NCBI RefSeq assembly: GCF_947039875.1
Contig: NZ_CAMRAN010000006.1
Span: 1 to 64,000, forward strand
Direction: 5' to 3'
Source of the DNA: an uncultured Photobacterium sp.
GTDB lineage: Bacteria > Pseudomonadota > Gammaproteobacteria > Enterobacterales > Vibrionaceae
DNA length: 64,000 nucleotides
In this document: positions 10,694 to 14,992 of the stretch, one piece after another
Layout: each line of letters opens with the position of its first letter
Numbering within the stretch: position 1 is the first letter of the stretch
The notes under the pieces: model-generated
Seen by the model: the letters and a program-made list of their open reading frames with translations, nothing else
What the model was told of the DNA's origin: nothing
Database searches by the model: none
Made by a program: the position numbers and the translations under genes

Positions 10694-12028
10694 TTAACTG
10701 TTTGTTACTGAATCGAAACGATAATCAACAATATTAAACTTACGTGAGACGATAGGTAATCGTGCCATTATTGTTGTCATTACTAAAATTAATAAAGTAG
10801 GTAATAACCAGCTAGCATGCGCTTGGTATAGTGGTAATGTTGCATTAAAGAACTGATTAAGATCTGCTGGCATTTTACCAAGAATACTAATGGCATCGAC
10901 AGTACCAAAGACCATTGCGGTGACTAATACTGAAGTATGCGTTAGCGTTGAAACATTCACGGCTGATGCAGTCAATGACGCTAATACTAAGGCAATAGCA
11001 ATCGGACATAATACTAAGATAGCAGGTAAGCTTACTTTTAAAATATCATTAAGGCCGAAATTAGCAATAATACCAGTTAATACCACAATAATGGTAGCTG
11101 TTAAGCCAAATGAAGCTTTGAACGTTTGCTGATAATACTCAGCGCAAGCATTGGTTAAACCAACAGTAGTGGTTAAACATGCCATGATAATAATAGCGGC
11201 TAATATCCATTGACCATAAGCACCAAATTCACCTGCAACATAACGAGTTAAGATCATACTGCCGTTCATACCATGGGTTGCAATTGAGGTTGATGTTGCA
11301 CCAACATACCCCATCGCAATATAGCAACCACCCATAAGAACAAAATAGATCATTGCTACTTTAAACGAGATATTTGCGATACCTTTTTGTGAAACGACGC
11401 CTTTTTCTTTAATCGCTTGAATAATAACCCAACCAAAACCTACTGCGGCAATAGCATCCATGGTCATGTAACCTTGAATTAAACCACTGGTGACAGCGCT
11501 ATGTTGGTAGTCTCCGTAAGGTGCCGCTGGTACGCCAAGTGGCGAAAAGAATGCAGCTAGGCCTAAACCTGCTAAAAGTAAAATCAGTGCAGGAGTCATT
11601 ACTTTACCAATGTAACTGACTAGGTTACCTGGCTTAAATGCTAAAATTAAGGTTAAAGCCGAAAAAACGATAGAGAATGCGACGAGATGATCAGCTTTGA
11701 AAAAAGGTTTTAGTCCCATCTCATAAGCAACGGTAACAGCACGCGGCATGCCAAATGCAGGTCCTATAGCTGTAAATAAGAGGATCCAAAATGTTGTTGC
11801 TAACCATTTTGGTAATGCTTTAGTGAGGTTTTTTGTGCAGCCAATACGGCCAAGGACAATAATAGTAAAAGCGGGTAGACCAACAGCGGTTACTAAGAAG
11901 CCACTCATTGCTGATGTTAATGATGTTCCTGCATCGAGACCCATTGCGGGGGGGAAGATCAAGTTACCAGCGCCTAAAAATAGTGCAAAGGTCATTAGAC
12001 CGATAGCGAGTAAGTCTTGTGTTTTCAA
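10694..12028 (-). CDS. brnQ: Branched-chain amino acid carrier BrnQ, copy 1
   Basis: A Na+- or H+-coupled inner-membrane symporter for Leu, Ile and Val (LIVCS family) with about twelve membrane segments. Diagnostic blocks are IGLMTFALFLGAGNLIFPP, QGYMTMDAIAAVGFGW and CLTTTVGLTNACAEY. I set the start at a TTG (12028): AGGTA lies eight bases before it, the same layout occurs at the paralogue 13940, and the family begins at this point. A possible ATG fifteen bases upstream has no ribosome site. It is followed by no clear T-rich terminator. A leader peptide and stacked hairpins precede it (12129-12342). Confidence 0.93.
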   Translation of the reverse strand: MKTQDLLAIGLMTFALFLGAGNLIFPPAMGLDAGTSLTSAMSGFLVTAVGLPAFTIIVLGRIGCTKNLTKALPKWLATTFWILLFTAIGPAFGMPRAVTVAYEMGLKPFFKADHLVAFSIVFSALTLILAFKPGNLVSYIGKVMTPALILLLAGLGLAAFFSPLGVPAAPYGDYQHSAVTSGLIQGYMTMDAIAAVGFGWVIIQAIKEKGVVSQKGIANISFKVAMIYFVLMGGCYIAMGYVGATSTSIATHGMNGSMILTRYVAGEFGAYGQWILAAIIIMACLTTTVGLTNACAEYYQQTFKASFGLTATIIVVLTGIIANFGLNDILKVSLPAILVLCPIAIALVLASLTASAVNVSTLTHTSVLVTAMVFGTVDAISILGKMPADLNQFFNATLPLYQAHASWLLPTLLILVMTTIMARLPIVSRKFNIVDYRFDSVTNS

Positions 12029-12128
12029 ATGTTGTACCTGCATTTTTGTGAATATCAAACAGCTATTAATCACTTAGTATCGTAACTATTATAGCCTGTA
12101 GCTTCGTTAATAATGGTTCCGCAGGTTT

Positions 12129-12199
12129 GCTGAAAGAAGATATGAAGAGTTGAAACTATCTTCCATCAGCAACGGCTGACGGAAGCTTGCCCGCCAGCC
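12129..12199 (-). promoter_or_regulatory. Putative attenuator hairpins upstream of brnQ copy 1
   Basis: Read on the minus strand, four segments can form three mutually exclusive helices. Segment 1 (12191-12199, GGCTGGCGG) pairs with segment 2 (CCGTCAGCC, 12174-12182). Segment 2 extended (12175-12185, CTTCCGTCAGC) pairs with segment 3 (12160-12170, GCTGATGGAAG). Segment 3 extended (12157-12170) pairs with segment 4 (12129-12142). Segment 1 starts at the leader peptide stop codon. This is the classical 1:2, 2:3, 3:4 arrangement of amino-acid attenuators. No run of T follows segment 4, so the outcome may be Rho-dependent or translational. Confidence 0.65.
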
Positions 12200-12342
12200 T
12201 AGCGAATAATCACTAGGATAAAAGCGGAAATAATTCGAGATATTTTTTTTATCGTTATAGAAGCAACATCAACCCAAGCGTTAGCCGCTATTGTCGATGT
12301 TAAATGTTTTTGTTCTCTATGTTCAAACACTGTTGAATGCAT
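12199..12342 (-). CDS. Leader peptide with Ile/Leu/Val control codons ahead of brnQ copy 1
   Basis: A 47-residue frame begins MHSTVFEHRE and ends ISAFILVIIR just before the hairpin set. Its last 20 residues hold eight Ile, one Leu and one Val codon, with ILVII directly before the final Arg. AGAAG lies about ten bases before the ATG, and TTTACA plus TATTTT with 17 bases between form a possible promoter further upstream. Ribosome stalling on these codons when Ile or Leu/Val is scarce would place the ribosome over segment 1 and change the downstream helix. The sequence pattern is seen directly; the regulatory role is inferred from ilv- and leu-type attenuators. An internal start is possible. Confidence 0.7.
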   Translation of the reverse strand: MHSTVFEHREQKHLTSTIAANAWVDVASITIKKISRIISAFILVIIR

Positions 12343-12570
12343 AATTTAACAACTTCTATTAATGAAACGTGAATTACAGCATAAAAATATAAAGAAAAGT
12401 TAGTGTTGTAAATAACTTTCTTCAATTTTTTTTAATCGTTATAAAAAAAATCTTATTAAAGTGTTTAATGTTAAATATTTAGGTGGTTATCGTGTGTTTA
12501 TTTTTGTTTTGGTAACGATATTGATTGGTTATGTTGTTAGTTATCGTTATTTTTAATTTGAGTGTGAATA

Positions 12571-12597
12571 ATAGGGCTAGCAATTTACTCGCCCTAT
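12571..12597 (-). terminator. Hairpin after brnQ copy 2
   Basis: ATAGGGC pairs with GCCCTAT across 13 bases, 24 bases past the brnQ2 stop. The following minus-strand sequence (TATTATTC) is only moderately T-rich. Confidence 0.55.
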
Positions 12598-12620
12598 CAC
12601 TGATGATTTGTGTTGAGACC

Positions 12621-13940
12621 TTAGTTTACCGCAGCACGATTAGAATTTTTATACTCGCGCGAACATAATTTACTGAGGAAAATAGTAAGGGCAACAGGAG
12701 CGAGCCAAGAAGCATGTGAGCTAAATAAGGGTAACCAGTGTTCGGCAAATGACGCGATTGTTGCAGGCAGTTTACTTAAAATATTTAACGCATCAATACT
12801 GCCAAATAATGTTGCAACAACAACGACGATTGTTTGACTGATAGAGATACGACGTTGTTCAGGTGTTGAATGGTTACGGATGAAGAAAGTTGAAATAATC
12901 AATGAAATTGCAATTGGGCATAAAATTAAGATAGCAGGTAGACTTACTTGAATAATGGTTTCTAAACCGACGTTAGAAATAATGGTTGTTAGTACCATGA
13001 TCACTGTTGCACTAAGTTTGAATTTTATACCGTAGGTGTTTTTATAATATTCACCATTCGCATTGGTTAGTCCAACCGTTGTTGTTAAACACGCCATTAA
13101 GGTGATTGTTGCTAATAATAATTGACCTAATGTTCCAAACTCACCAGCAGCATAGCGGGTAAGAATTTCACCACCATTGGTTGCTTGTGGTGCAATATCA
13201 GAAGACGTTGCACCTAAATATCCCATTGCAAGATAGCAAAGTGACATAAGAAATGCGTAAATCAGAGCGATGCGGAGGGTGTAGTAAGAAATGGCTTTAT
13301 CGCATTTCACGCCGGTATTACGAATCGTTTGAATGATAACCCAGCCAAAAGCAACCGCAGCGATAGCATCTAATGTCATGTAACCCTGAATAAGTCCATT
13401 AACAGTTGGAGCCTGACGGTAAGTTTCAATGGCGGCTGTCGGTGAGCCTAATGGGTTTATTACGGCTGAAATAGCCAGTAGTGCCAGCATTGCAATCAGT
13501 GCAGGGGTCATTACTTTGCCAATATAATCAACAAGCTTACCCGGTTTTAAAGCGATGACTAATGTAAGAGCACAGAAAATGGCAGAGAAGATCATTAATC
13601 CATTGCCAGAATAAAAAGGTTTGATGCCCATTTCATAAGCAACAGTGACAGCGCGCGGTAATACAAAAGCTGGACCAAGTGTTGTTAACACTAAAAACCA
13701 AAACGAGCGATCCATCCATTTGGGTAATGCTGACGTTAATTTATCAGCAGAAGATAAACGGCCAAGAACAACTAACGTTAATGCGGGTAAGCCAACGGCG
13801 GTCAATAAAAATCCAGTAATAGCAATAAGCCAGTTTTCACCCGCTTGTTGTGCCATAAGAGGAGGGAATATTAAGTTACCAGCACCAAGAAATAATGCAA
13901 AGGTCATAAAACCGATGGCTGCAAGTTCTTTTCTTTTCAA
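12621..13940 (-). CDS. brnQ: Branched-chain amino acid carrier BrnQ, copy 2
   Basis: This 439-residue LIVCS-family symporter is clearly paralogous to the protein at 10694-12028: IGFMTFALFLGAGNLIFPP, QGYMTLDAIAAVAFGW and CLTTTVGLTNANGEYY are shared. About twelve membrane segments are visible. Translation begins at a TTG (13940) with AAGG nine bases upstream; no ATG fits. The two carriers are transcribed in the same direction, but a 590-base spacer with its own leader separates them, so they are likely independent units. Differences in substrate range cannot be read from sequence, yet their leaders carry different control codons. Confidence 0.93.
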   Translation of the reverse strand: MKRKELAAIGFMTFALFLGAGNLIFPPLMAQQAGENWLIAITGFLLTAVGLPALTLVVLGRLSSADKLTSALPKWMDRSFWFLVLTTLGPAFVLPRAVTVAYEMGIKPFYSGNGLMIFSAIFCALTLVIALKPGKLVDYIGKVMTPALIAMLALLAISAVINPLGSPTAAIETYRQAPTVNGLIQGYMTLDAIAAVAFGWVIIQTIRNTGVKCDKAISYYTLRIALIYAFLMSLCYLAMGYLGATSSDIAPQATNGGEILTRYAAGEFGTLGQLLLATITLMACLTTTVGLTNANGEYYKNTYGIKFKLSATVIMVLTTIISNVGLETIIQVSLPAILILCPIAISLIISTFFIRNHSTPEQRRISISQTIVVVVATLFGSIDALNILSKLPATIASFAEHWLPLFSSHASWLAPVALTIFLSKLCSREYKNSNRAAVN

Positions 13941-13956
13941 ATGACATACCTTAATT

Positions 13957-14056
13957 CAAATAAAATAATCTGAGTCAGTATGCTGGAAGAGATAATTTAG
14001 AAGTGAAATTCATATCCGCCAGCGTTACTGACGAATAAGTTAACCGTCAGCGTCAG
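13957..14056 (-). promoter_or_regulatory. Putative attenuator hairpins upstream of brnQ copy 2
   Basis: On the minus strand the Val-codon run (14062-14073) can pair in part with segment 2 (14044-14056, two CTGACG units). Segment 2 can instead pair with CGTCAG at the start of segment 3 (14028-14033). Segment 3 (14019-14032) can pair with segment 4 (13974-13986) through GTCAGTA/TACTGAC and GCTGG/CCAGC. That last stem is followed by a T-rich tract (TTATTTTATTT), as expected for an intrinsic attenuator. Segment 2 begins at the leader stop codon. Confidence 0.65.
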
Positions 14057-14139
14057 AAAATGACGACGACGACAGAGTTTAGCGTACAAGCAATCTGTAA
14101 GGTTGCAGCATCCTGATTGTTGTTAATGTTCTGAGACAT
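14053..14139 (-). CDS. Leader peptide with four consecutive Val codons ahead of brnQ copy 2
   Basis: A 28-residue frame starts MSQNINNNQDAA and ends NSVVVVIF. Four identical GTC codons in a row plus one ATT lie immediately before the stop, at the foot of the hairpin set. This is the signature of a valine-sensing attenuation leader. AGAG lies about ten bases before the ATG, and TTTACA with TAAGTT 17 bases further forms a possible promoter. The stop codon overlaps the first segment that can form alternative helices. The arrangement mirrors that of the paralogue, but the control codons differ. Role inferred, not shown. Confidence 0.72.
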   Translation of the reverse strand: MSQNINNNQDAATLQIACTLNSVVVVIF

Positions 14140-14311
14140 AGCTTATACGCTCTAAATAAAATGAGGTTCAAACTTAATCGGTATTGGCACACTTGTAAAG
14201 CGTGATGAGAAAATAAACGGTACTTTTTAGTATTCATTGACTCGATGCCATATAAACAACTGAATAGTTATCACTATGAAATAACATCTGGTCACTTATA
14301 AAGGTGGATCT

Positions 14312-14992
14312 TTATTGTTGGTTTAATAGCAGTGCTTGTAATTCAGCAAGTGAAGATACGGTGTAGGTTGGGTAAATACCTTCTGGTTGTGATTTTTGTT
14401 CACTATTAAGCCAGCAAGTATCCATTCCGGCGTTGATTCCACCTAAAATATCTGATTGCGGGTTATCACCAACCATTAGAATATTTTGACGTTGCGTCAT
14501 GTTCATTTTCTGACAAGCATAATCAAAAATTTGAATATCAGGTTTTGCGACACCTACTTGTTCTGAAATAACTAGCACATCAAAAAAATATTTAAATCCG
14601 GTGCGTTGTAATCGAATTTCTTGTAATGCAGTAAAACCGTTGGTGATAATACCCAATTTCGCATGTGGCTTTAATGCCTCTAGAAGTGATTTGGCTCCGG
14701 CTAATGGTGTACAAATATCGGCCATTGCCATTAAAAAATCATGATTAAGCTGCTCTGTTGATAGAGAAAGGGTTGCTGCCCATGATTTAAAACGAATATT
14801 TTGCAATTCCGTTGCTGATATTTTTCCGTTTTGATAATCAACCCATAATGGTCGATTAATGGCTTCATAGTGTTCAAAATCAGCGTGAGTGAACGTGACA
14901 TTATGGCGAGAAAACATCAGTTGAAGGCCGTGAAATGCATCAAAGTGAAACAAAGTTTCATCAGCATCAAATAAAATCCCTTGGTACTTCAT
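14312..14992 (-). CDS. yjjG: HAD-family pyrimidine 5'-nucleotidase YjjG
   Basis: YjjG dephosphorylates non-canonical and canonical nucleoside monophosphates such as dUMP and dTMP, acting as a house-cleaning enzyme. The 226-residue protein shows all HAD motifs: motif I FDADETL (nucleophile and acid-base Asp), motif II IITNG, motif III with Lys in GVAKPD, and motif [16 protein letters not shown] helical cap sits between motifs I and II, as in the YjjG/C1 group. It ends with [12 protein letters not shown], typical of the family's C-terminus. A long stem-loop lies about 30 bases upstream of the start. Confidence 0.92.

Follow-up and report, generated by a model that had tools for sequence, protein, structure and literature searches.

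Leader reading frames with isoleucine, valine or leucine codon runs precede brnQ carrier genes of Photobacterium and its relatives and may act on translation

Why should two adjacent carrier genes of one family each be preceded by a short reading frame ending in branched-chain amino acid codons, with a different run in each? The question is raised by a tandem pair of brnQ genes on the minus strand of a stretch of 64,000 nucleotides from an uncultured Photobacterium sp. (assembly GCF_947039875.1, contig NZ_CAMRAN010000006.1, positions 1 to 64,000), the whole of which is called the window here. Both products are BrnQ/LIVCS carriers of family TIGR00796 (352.5 and 345.5 bits, cut-off 243.4), and each gene has its own upstream leader open reading frame (ORF). 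All features of the window given below lie on the minus strand. Leader ORF 1 (12199..12342; 47 codons, ATG start) precedes brnQ1 and ends in the isoleucine-rich run ..IISAFILVIIR*, whose control codons are ATT ATT TCC GCT TTT ATC CTA GTG ATT ATT CGC TAG (12199..12234). Leader ORF 2 (14053..14139; 28 codons, ATG start) precedes brnQ2 and ends in the valine run ..NSVVVVIF*. An earlier note on this DNA had assigned leader 1 to isoleucine, leucine and valine together. With five isoleucine residues and one each of leucine and valine in the run, the isoleucine part of this assignment stands, and the leader is better read as an isoleucine leader.

The claim of that note that each tandem gene has its own leader with a different control amino acid was borne out among relatives. 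A matching leader was found in all 174 upstream regions fetched from Photobacterium, Aliivibrio, Enterovibrio and Shewanella (83 brnQ1, 59 brnQ2 and 32 of a third type, brnQ3), 128 of them distinct. These regions overlap, since two collections share species, and dereplication at 93% identity left 36, 24 and 21 regions. The leader pattern was present in 36 out of 36, 24 out of 24 and 21 out of 21 of these, and in 23 of 720, 8 of 480 and 1 of 420 shuffled upstream regions, respectively. Regions short of upstream DNA were excluded before counting (e.g. L035, whose contig starts at the gene), and the fetched set leaves out the brnQ2-type rows of many tandem genomes. A stricter pattern missed 4 out of 119 regions (L076, L077, L098, L099), all of the brnQ3 type and with a run that opens with three leucines rather than four; the looser pattern behind the count of 174 takes these in.

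The observation was thus confirmed and is broader than first stated, because a third paralogue with a leucine leader is added to the pair. The window genome has two further brnQ genes outside the window, four in total. The third (contig C3, locus L003) follows a leucine leader ORF at L003:1274-1390 (MKHST...MATSLLLLSLNLIQG) with a strong Shine-Dalgarno sequence and the codons CTC CTC CTG CTC TCT TTG AAT CTT (LLLLSLNL). Relatives keep the leucine run of this type, mostly as LLLLSL.

The codons themselves show that the encoded residue is kept. In the dereplicated sets, synonymous changes made up a share of 0.30 for brnQ1, 0.18 for brnQ2 and 0.49 for brnQ3 of the codon differences between pairs of control blocks, compared with 0.07, 0.07 and 0.06 in the block directly upstream. 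At position -9 of the brnQ3 leader, leucine was found in 21 out of 21 sequences, encoded by five different codons. As judged from these comparisons, the control amino acids are conserved beyond what conservation of the RNA alone would give, because codons vary while the residue stays.

The leaders run into a set of competing RNA strands. Both leader regions of the window fold better than dinucleotide shuffles (brnQ1: z = -5.46, 0 of 200 shuffles as good; brnQ2: z = -4.19, 1 of 200). The leaders share six strands. The control-codon run itself is s1, s2 lies behind the stop codon or overlaps it, and s3, which contains CCGUCAGC, CGUCAG or CUGUCAGCUU, is nearly invariant across leaders. The mutually exclusive pairings that are possible are s1:s2, s2:s3, s3:s4, s4:s5 and s3:s6. 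In brnQ1 and brnQ2, s4 and s6 share the sense of s2; therefore s3 is able to pair with s2, s4 or s6. That the leaders stop exactly where exclusive hairpins begin, as had been noted earlier, agrees with this layout: the stop codon of leader 1 immediately adjoins s2 (12198-12191), and the UGA of leader 2 overlaps the first bases of its s2 (14054-14044).

In the brnQ1 leader, s1 (UUCCGC, 12224-12229) lies within the control codons and is followed by s2 (GCUGGCGG, 12191..12198), directly past the stop, with s1 or s3 as partner. Strand s3 (UUCCGUCAGCC, 12174..12184) can pair with s2, s4 or s6, and CCGUCAGC within it is unchanged in 36 out of 36 aligned rows. Strand s4 (GCUGAUGGAAGAU, 12158..12170) has s3 or s5 as partner, and s5 (12129..12141), a C/U-rich and G-poor segment, pairs with s4. 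ACCUGC in s6 (ACCUGCGGAAC, 12116..12126) is complementary to the Shine-Dalgarno sequence GCAGGU (12036..12041) of brnQ1; CUG and CGGAA of s6 match s3 by eye with one bulged base, a straight match failing in the window. In the brnQ2 leader, s1 consists of four GTC codons (14062..14073) and pairs with s2 (GACGCUGACGG, 14044..14054), which can alternatively pair with s3 (CGUCAGUA, 14026..14033). The other partners of s3 are s4 (CGCUGGCGGAUA, 14013..14024), which may also pair with s5 (UUAUCUCUUCCAGC, 13982..13995), and s6 (AUACUGAC, 13974..13981). Together with its neighbours, s6 is complementary to GGUAUGUC at the ribosome-binding site; the ribosome-binding region of brnQ2 reads AAGGUAUGUC (13943..13952).

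RNAalifold chose s1:s2 plus s3:s4 in all three classes, and the s3:s4 pairing was maintained in 100%, 99.5% and 96.8% of cells for brnQ1, brnQ2 and brnQ3 (for brnQ3, 19 of the 21 representatives were aligned; L093 and L094 were omitted for long spacers). Strand pairings were also compared between own and permuted partners, a permutation that ignores phylogeny. By this measure own partners fitted better for s3:s4 in brnQ1 (z = -4.4) and brnQ2 (z = -5.4), for s3:s6 in brnQ2 (z = -5.0) and brnQ3 (z = -3.5), and for s4:s5 in brnQ2 (z = -2.9).

A further link connects the leader RNA with the start of the carrier gene. The region after s4 fitted its own ribosome-binding site better than permuted ones in brnQ1 (z = -5.6, p = 0.0003) and brnQ2 (z = -3.7, p = 0.0007), with z = -1.5 and p = 0.07 in brnQ3; the 12 control pairings all stayed above a one-sided p of 0.05, with 0.088 as the lowest value. 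On dereplication the values were p = 0.0008 (n = 19) and 0.008 (n = 13) for brnQ1, 0.005-0.017 (n = 12, 9, 7) for brnQ2 and 0.018-0.15 (n = 11, 9, 7) for brnQ3, while none of 18 controls fell under 0.05 (nearest 0.054). Strand s6 of brnQ1 by itself gave z = -6.8 against the site, and the paired motifs change together: CCUGC/GCAGG in the group of the window, GGUCC/GGAC in many others, and GGUCCC/AGGG in two (L106, L113). On these comparisons, the RNA beyond the hairpins changes in step with the brnQ ribosome-binding site, most clearly in brnQ1. Strand s5 was also considered as the site-masking strand and found unsupported singly in every class by the co-variation test. Because the downstream RNA complements the ribosome-binding site of brnQ, an output on translation rather than on termination is indicated.

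We therefore consider it fairly probable that each regulated brnQ leader contains a ribosome-operated RNA switch whose output is mainly the translation of brnQ, with Rho possibly helping. This reading is built on sequence comparison, namely on the leader ORFs, the amino-acid-specific runs, the exclusive pairings, the absence of a conserved terminator and the co-variation with the site; translation of the leader, pausing of the ribosome, sensing of transfer RNA (tRNA) charging and the translational output are what we infer from it. A ribosome would translate the leader peptide and, when the cognate charged tRNA is scarce (isoleucine for brnQ1, valine for brnQ2, leucine for the third copy), would pause on the control run. 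A pause there would uncover s2, so that s2:s3 could form and s4 would be left for s5. A ribosome at the stop codon would cover s2, and s3 could then pair with s4 or, further downstream, with s6. The partner taken by s3 would set which downstream segment, s5 or s6, can mask the ribosome-binding site. Translation of brnQ would be the main output, and Rho would perhaps reinforce it when the message is untranslated.

Modelling of ribosome positions is consistent with such a switch in brnQ1. With the ribosome on codons -11 to -4 the mean s2:s3 probability was 0.86-0.90, and from -3 on it was 0. With s2:s3 predicted for a ribosome at -11 to -4 and lost from -3 on, most of the leader 1 run would lie where pausing matters. 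The s6:site index, paused versus at stop, was 0.95/0.48 for brnQ1, 0.98/0.87 for brnQ2 and 0.26/0.17 for brnQ3. As to direction, physiology favours more carrier during amino acid shortage. The strand order of brnQ1, taken literally, favours in the model a pause that frees s6 to mask the site, so that starvation would reduce expression. Rho might contribute in the opposite sense and so give the physiologically expected direction, given that C exceeds G in the s5 segment of 81 out of 81 sequences. At 20 C, s3:s4 and s3:s6 of brnQ1 differed by 0.7 kcal/mol on average, s3:s6 being lower in 18 of 36 sequences, with a mean folding barrier of 21 (a crude upper bound). For brnQ2 at the same temperature, s3:s4 was favoured by 3.9 on average, s3:s6 was lower in 6 of 24, and the mean barrier was 24. 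The barriers are high and the brnQ1 energies nearly equal; therefore the order of folding matters, and equilibrium cannot settle the direction.

A fuller version of this scheme is tentative, and we hold it to be possible rather than probable. Here the paralogues would each have their own isoleucine, valine or leucine ribosome sensor acting on translation, s3 would pick among the same-sense strands s2, s4 and s6, and s6 would mask the site. The control codons could be re-specified in evolution, and the logic may run the other way, translation of the carrier then requiring that its leader can be completed.

Several results weigh against a ribosome-operated translational switch. The Shine-Dalgarno sequences in front of the two leader ORFs of the window are weak, and at least 4 matching bases were found in 16 out of 36 brnQ1, 0 out of 24 brnQ2 and 20 out of 21 brnQ3 leaders. 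Apart from the disregard of phylogeny in the permutations, some own-partner tests were not significant, such as s3:s4 in brnQ3 (z = -1.3, p = 0.11) and s4:s5 in brnQ3 (z = -1.1, p = 0.14), or borderline, such as s3:s6 in brnQ1 (z = -1.6, p = 0.047) and s4:s5 in brnQ1 (z = -1.6, p = 0.058). The strictest dereplication (n = 7) of the ribosome-binding-site test resulted in p = 0.086 for brnQ1 and p = 0.15 for brnQ3, and neither s5 nor s6 of brnQ2 and brnQ3 showed significant co-variation with the site singly. The s3:s4 core stem lacks two-sided compensatory changes in every class, its changes being one-sided and compatible with wobble pairs. This would be expected if s3 is held by several partners. 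Hence the expectation of the earlier note that conserved leaders and covarying stems would be found in relatives was upheld for the leader ORFs and their amino acid and not for two-sided covariation of s3:s4, so that it was only weakly passed. For s3:s6, brnQ2 and brnQ3 have a single cell each with a two-sided change and brnQ1 has none; 9-10 of the 36 brnQ1 rows, including the group of the window, lack a straight match between these two strands. For brnQ2 and brnQ3 a weak switch is predicted: the mean s2:s3 probability of brnQ2 was at most 0.14 (a differently scaled index gave 0.24), and the shift in brnQ3 was partial (22 brnQ2 and 20 brnQ3 rows were modelled, two and one row, respectively, being left out). 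Openness of the ribosome-binding site at 37 C, calculated for all 36 brnQ1, 24 brnQ2 and 21 brnQ3 rows, went from 0.46 to 0.48, from 0.43 to 0.44 and from 0.50 to 0.49 between a ribosome paused at codon -6 and one at the stop. Masking of the site by an equilibrium switch was discarded, since openness hardly shifted with the ribosome at successive codons.

The alternative that survives best, although we regard it as unlikely, is Rho-dependent attenuation, in which s3:s4 would expose the C-rich, G-poor s5 for Rho while s2:s3 plus s4:s5 would hide it. The segment from s4 to s6 has C>G in all 81 leaders and at least twice as much C as G in 77 out of 81. Among 45 upstream segments taken as controls from the window and from five further loci of its genome, the corresponding numbers were 25 and 10. 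This mechanism would also yield the physiologically expected direction. However, s5 would be pyrimidine-rich regardless, to pair with the purine-rich s4, the segment (mean length 35-38 nucleotides) is short for a Rho site, and the co-variation with the ribosome-binding site is left unexplained.

Classical transcription attenuation, with s3:s4 (or s4:s5) as an intrinsic terminator and s2:s3 as the antiterminator, appears quite improbable. It is suggested by the strand order 1:2, 2:3, 3:4, as in ilv, leu and thr leaders, by a strong GC hairpin that occupies the terminator position, and by a loose scan for hairpins followed by T in the 81 leaders, which found 29 matches (11 of 36 brnQ1, 17 of 24 brnQ2 and 1 of 21 brnQ3; no shuffle baseline). 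From species to species the hairpin matched is not the same one, its tail is often weak, and in brnQ2 a match most commonly consists of s1:s2 and the U-rich RNA behind it, so that no single terminator is conserved. The window between 12000 and 14500 contains 0 terminator-like sites (shuffles had a mean of 1.8), and no terminator U-tract lies behind its hairpins. As a positive control, leuA of the window genome, whose leader ends in ..LLLAILLIVT*, clearly displays a GC hairpin plus T run. By comparison of the aligned leaders, a conserved intrinsic terminator is absent from the brnQ genes, and attenuation in the ilv, leu and thr sense, which the earlier note had assumed, is not supported for them. 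The brnQ leaders would rather be a variant of ribosome-mediated attenuation without the classical intrinsic terminator and with signs of acting on translation. The leuA attenuator itself (locus L160, contig C28; leader MKTCFYLLLAILLIVT), about 200 bases upstream of leuA, is of the ordinary type.

That the leaders encode small hydrophobic peptides with a function of their own, the RNA folds being incidental, is very improbable. The hydrophobic C-termini are conserved, but the remainder of the peptide is hardly so (the synonymous share of 0.06-0.07 given above), the run is invariably next to the same set of competing strands, and brnQ is what follows the strong sites of the leader RNA models. 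Chance ORFs in a structured untranslated region would fit the weak Shine-Dalgarno sequences of leaders 1 and 2 but are contradicted by the conservation and shuffle tests and can practically be dismissed.

These RNA models of the three leaders, searched with strict filters in 295 genomes of the order, gave strong sites solely before brnQ. All 12 sites of the brnQ1 model with E <= 1.3e-10 precede brnQ, as do the three sites at E < 1e-18 of each of the brnQ2 and brnQ3 models, and the window genome contains one site per model. The brnQ2 model weakly matches nine brnQ1 leaders (E 2e-7 to 9e-3), consistent with a shared ancestry of the two. Six weak matches of the brnQ1 model fall on the opposite strand of brnQ1 leaders. 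BrnQ was absent at 13 of the 23 model-match loci checked for it; all 13 are weak, with E values of 3.5e-4 or higher, and appear to be due to chance. Among 20 listed genomes of genus group g12, 17 had no brnQ1-type site. Isoleucine-type brnQ1 leaders of the same plan were also seen beyond the Vibrionaceae in the same order (L182, L183, L185, L168, L169, L181).

Does the leader follow the carrier? A BrnQ protein tree was built from 53 of 92 full proteins after thinning, and leaders were labelled by the commonest of isoleucine, leucine and valine among their last 12 residues. The 19 rows with leucine leaders were on one side of a branch (support 100/99), 15 rows with valine leaders grouped with one row lacking upstream DNA on its contig (98/98), and 16 rows with isoleucine leaders grouped with one valine-leader row (95/86). 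In this tree leader type tracks the transporter clade with one exception. In seven genomes the brnQ1-type leader is mostly valine or mixed instead of isoleucine (L103, L106, L109, L112, L113, L115, L119) and reads ..VV(S/A)VVVLVIVI or similar, with IISVVVLVIVI in L119. In 6 of the 7 an adjacent brnQ1-type copy retains its isoleucine leader (L114, L126-L130). One of the Val-shifted pairs is in the tree (L039), within the isoleucine clade and on long branches flagged by the program. It is likely that an isoleucine-type leader switched to valine codons in one lineage; because of the flagged branches of L039 this falls short of proof. Such a switch would be a natural test of how a sensor is re-specified.

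Ribosome-mediated transcription attenuators control the leu, ilv, thr and his operons of gammaproteobacteria. The brnQ leaders resemble them in the short leader ORF with a regulatory codon run, in the stop beside strand 2 and in the exclusive 1:2, 2:3 and 3:4 pairings, the predicted switch being clear for brnQ1 only. Unlike them, the brnQ leaders target a transporter instead of a biosynthetic operon, lack a conserved intrinsic terminator, add s5, s6 and a complementarity reaching the ribosome-binding site, and serve three paralogues with three control amino acids. Translational attenuators are known as well, such as the ermC leader and the translational leader elements of actinobacterial leu genes. 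As in these, the position of the ribosome in the leader ORF would presumably alter a pairing that can sequester the ribosome-binding site of the following gene. In contrast to ermC, which uses a drug-dependent arrest peptide, the brnQ run consists of amino-acid control codons, and the brnQ leaders have another strand plan and precede transporter genes. In Gram-positive bacteria brnQ genes carry T-box leaders, which likewise put brnQ under control of the tRNA-charging state; the leaders described here would differ in sensing it via the translating ribosome. No T-box or other Rfam family scored over the gathering score in the window, and over 11900-14350 the sole match at E<=1 was a short, implausible iron-response element (E = 0.22). 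The Rfam amino-acid leader families had no match to brnQ; the leuA leader L160 was also unmatched at the gathering score, so the power of this search is low.

In Shewanella, the DNA-binding protein TyrR controls brnQ according to passages of two papers (PMC3223726, PMC5343134), and these TyrR passages mention attenuators for biosynthetic operons only. The brnQ of a relative is thus also regulated there, but via a DNA-binding protein. In the portions of open-access full text covered, including those of PMC2965389, PMC3766115 and PMC1273637, no description of a leader peptide on gammaproteobacterial brnQ was found. Novelty is claimed within this literature; a 2004 attenuator survey (Vitreschak et al., FEMS Microbiol Lett) may hold an earlier mention.

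Control-codon attenuation, textbook knowledge for biosynthetic operons, would here control import, with a separate gate for each branched-chain amino acid. The leaders also offer a readable prediction of the role of the carriers, since the amino acid to which a carrier would answer is spelled out in its control codons: isoleucine for brnQ1, valine for brnQ2 and leucine for brnQ3. The family annotation says merely 'branched-chain', and the leader codons would refine this assignment.

TTG appears to be the start codon of both window genes. The coding sequence of brnQ1 (10694..12028) is listed among the ORFs as 10694-12073 with an upstream GTG start, and TTG at 12028 was preferred from the alignment; brnQ2 occupies 12621..13940. 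Relatives start brnQ at TTG, GTG or ATG, in a position identical to 12028 and 13940 of the window. The window genome is near P. piscicola, P. carnosum and P. iliopiscarium, with 93-94% BrnQ2 identity. Upstream of its fourth brnQ (L004) a comparable leader is missing, and five brnQ genes from single-brnQ genomes (L153-L157) have only unrelated ORFs rich in isoleucine, leucine and valine upstream; the N-termini of these five BrnQ proteins (FAFFLGAG) match the fourth brnQ type. Just past the end of brnQ2 an inverted repeat, ATAGGGC..GCCCTAT (12571-12597), is possibly a weak terminator.

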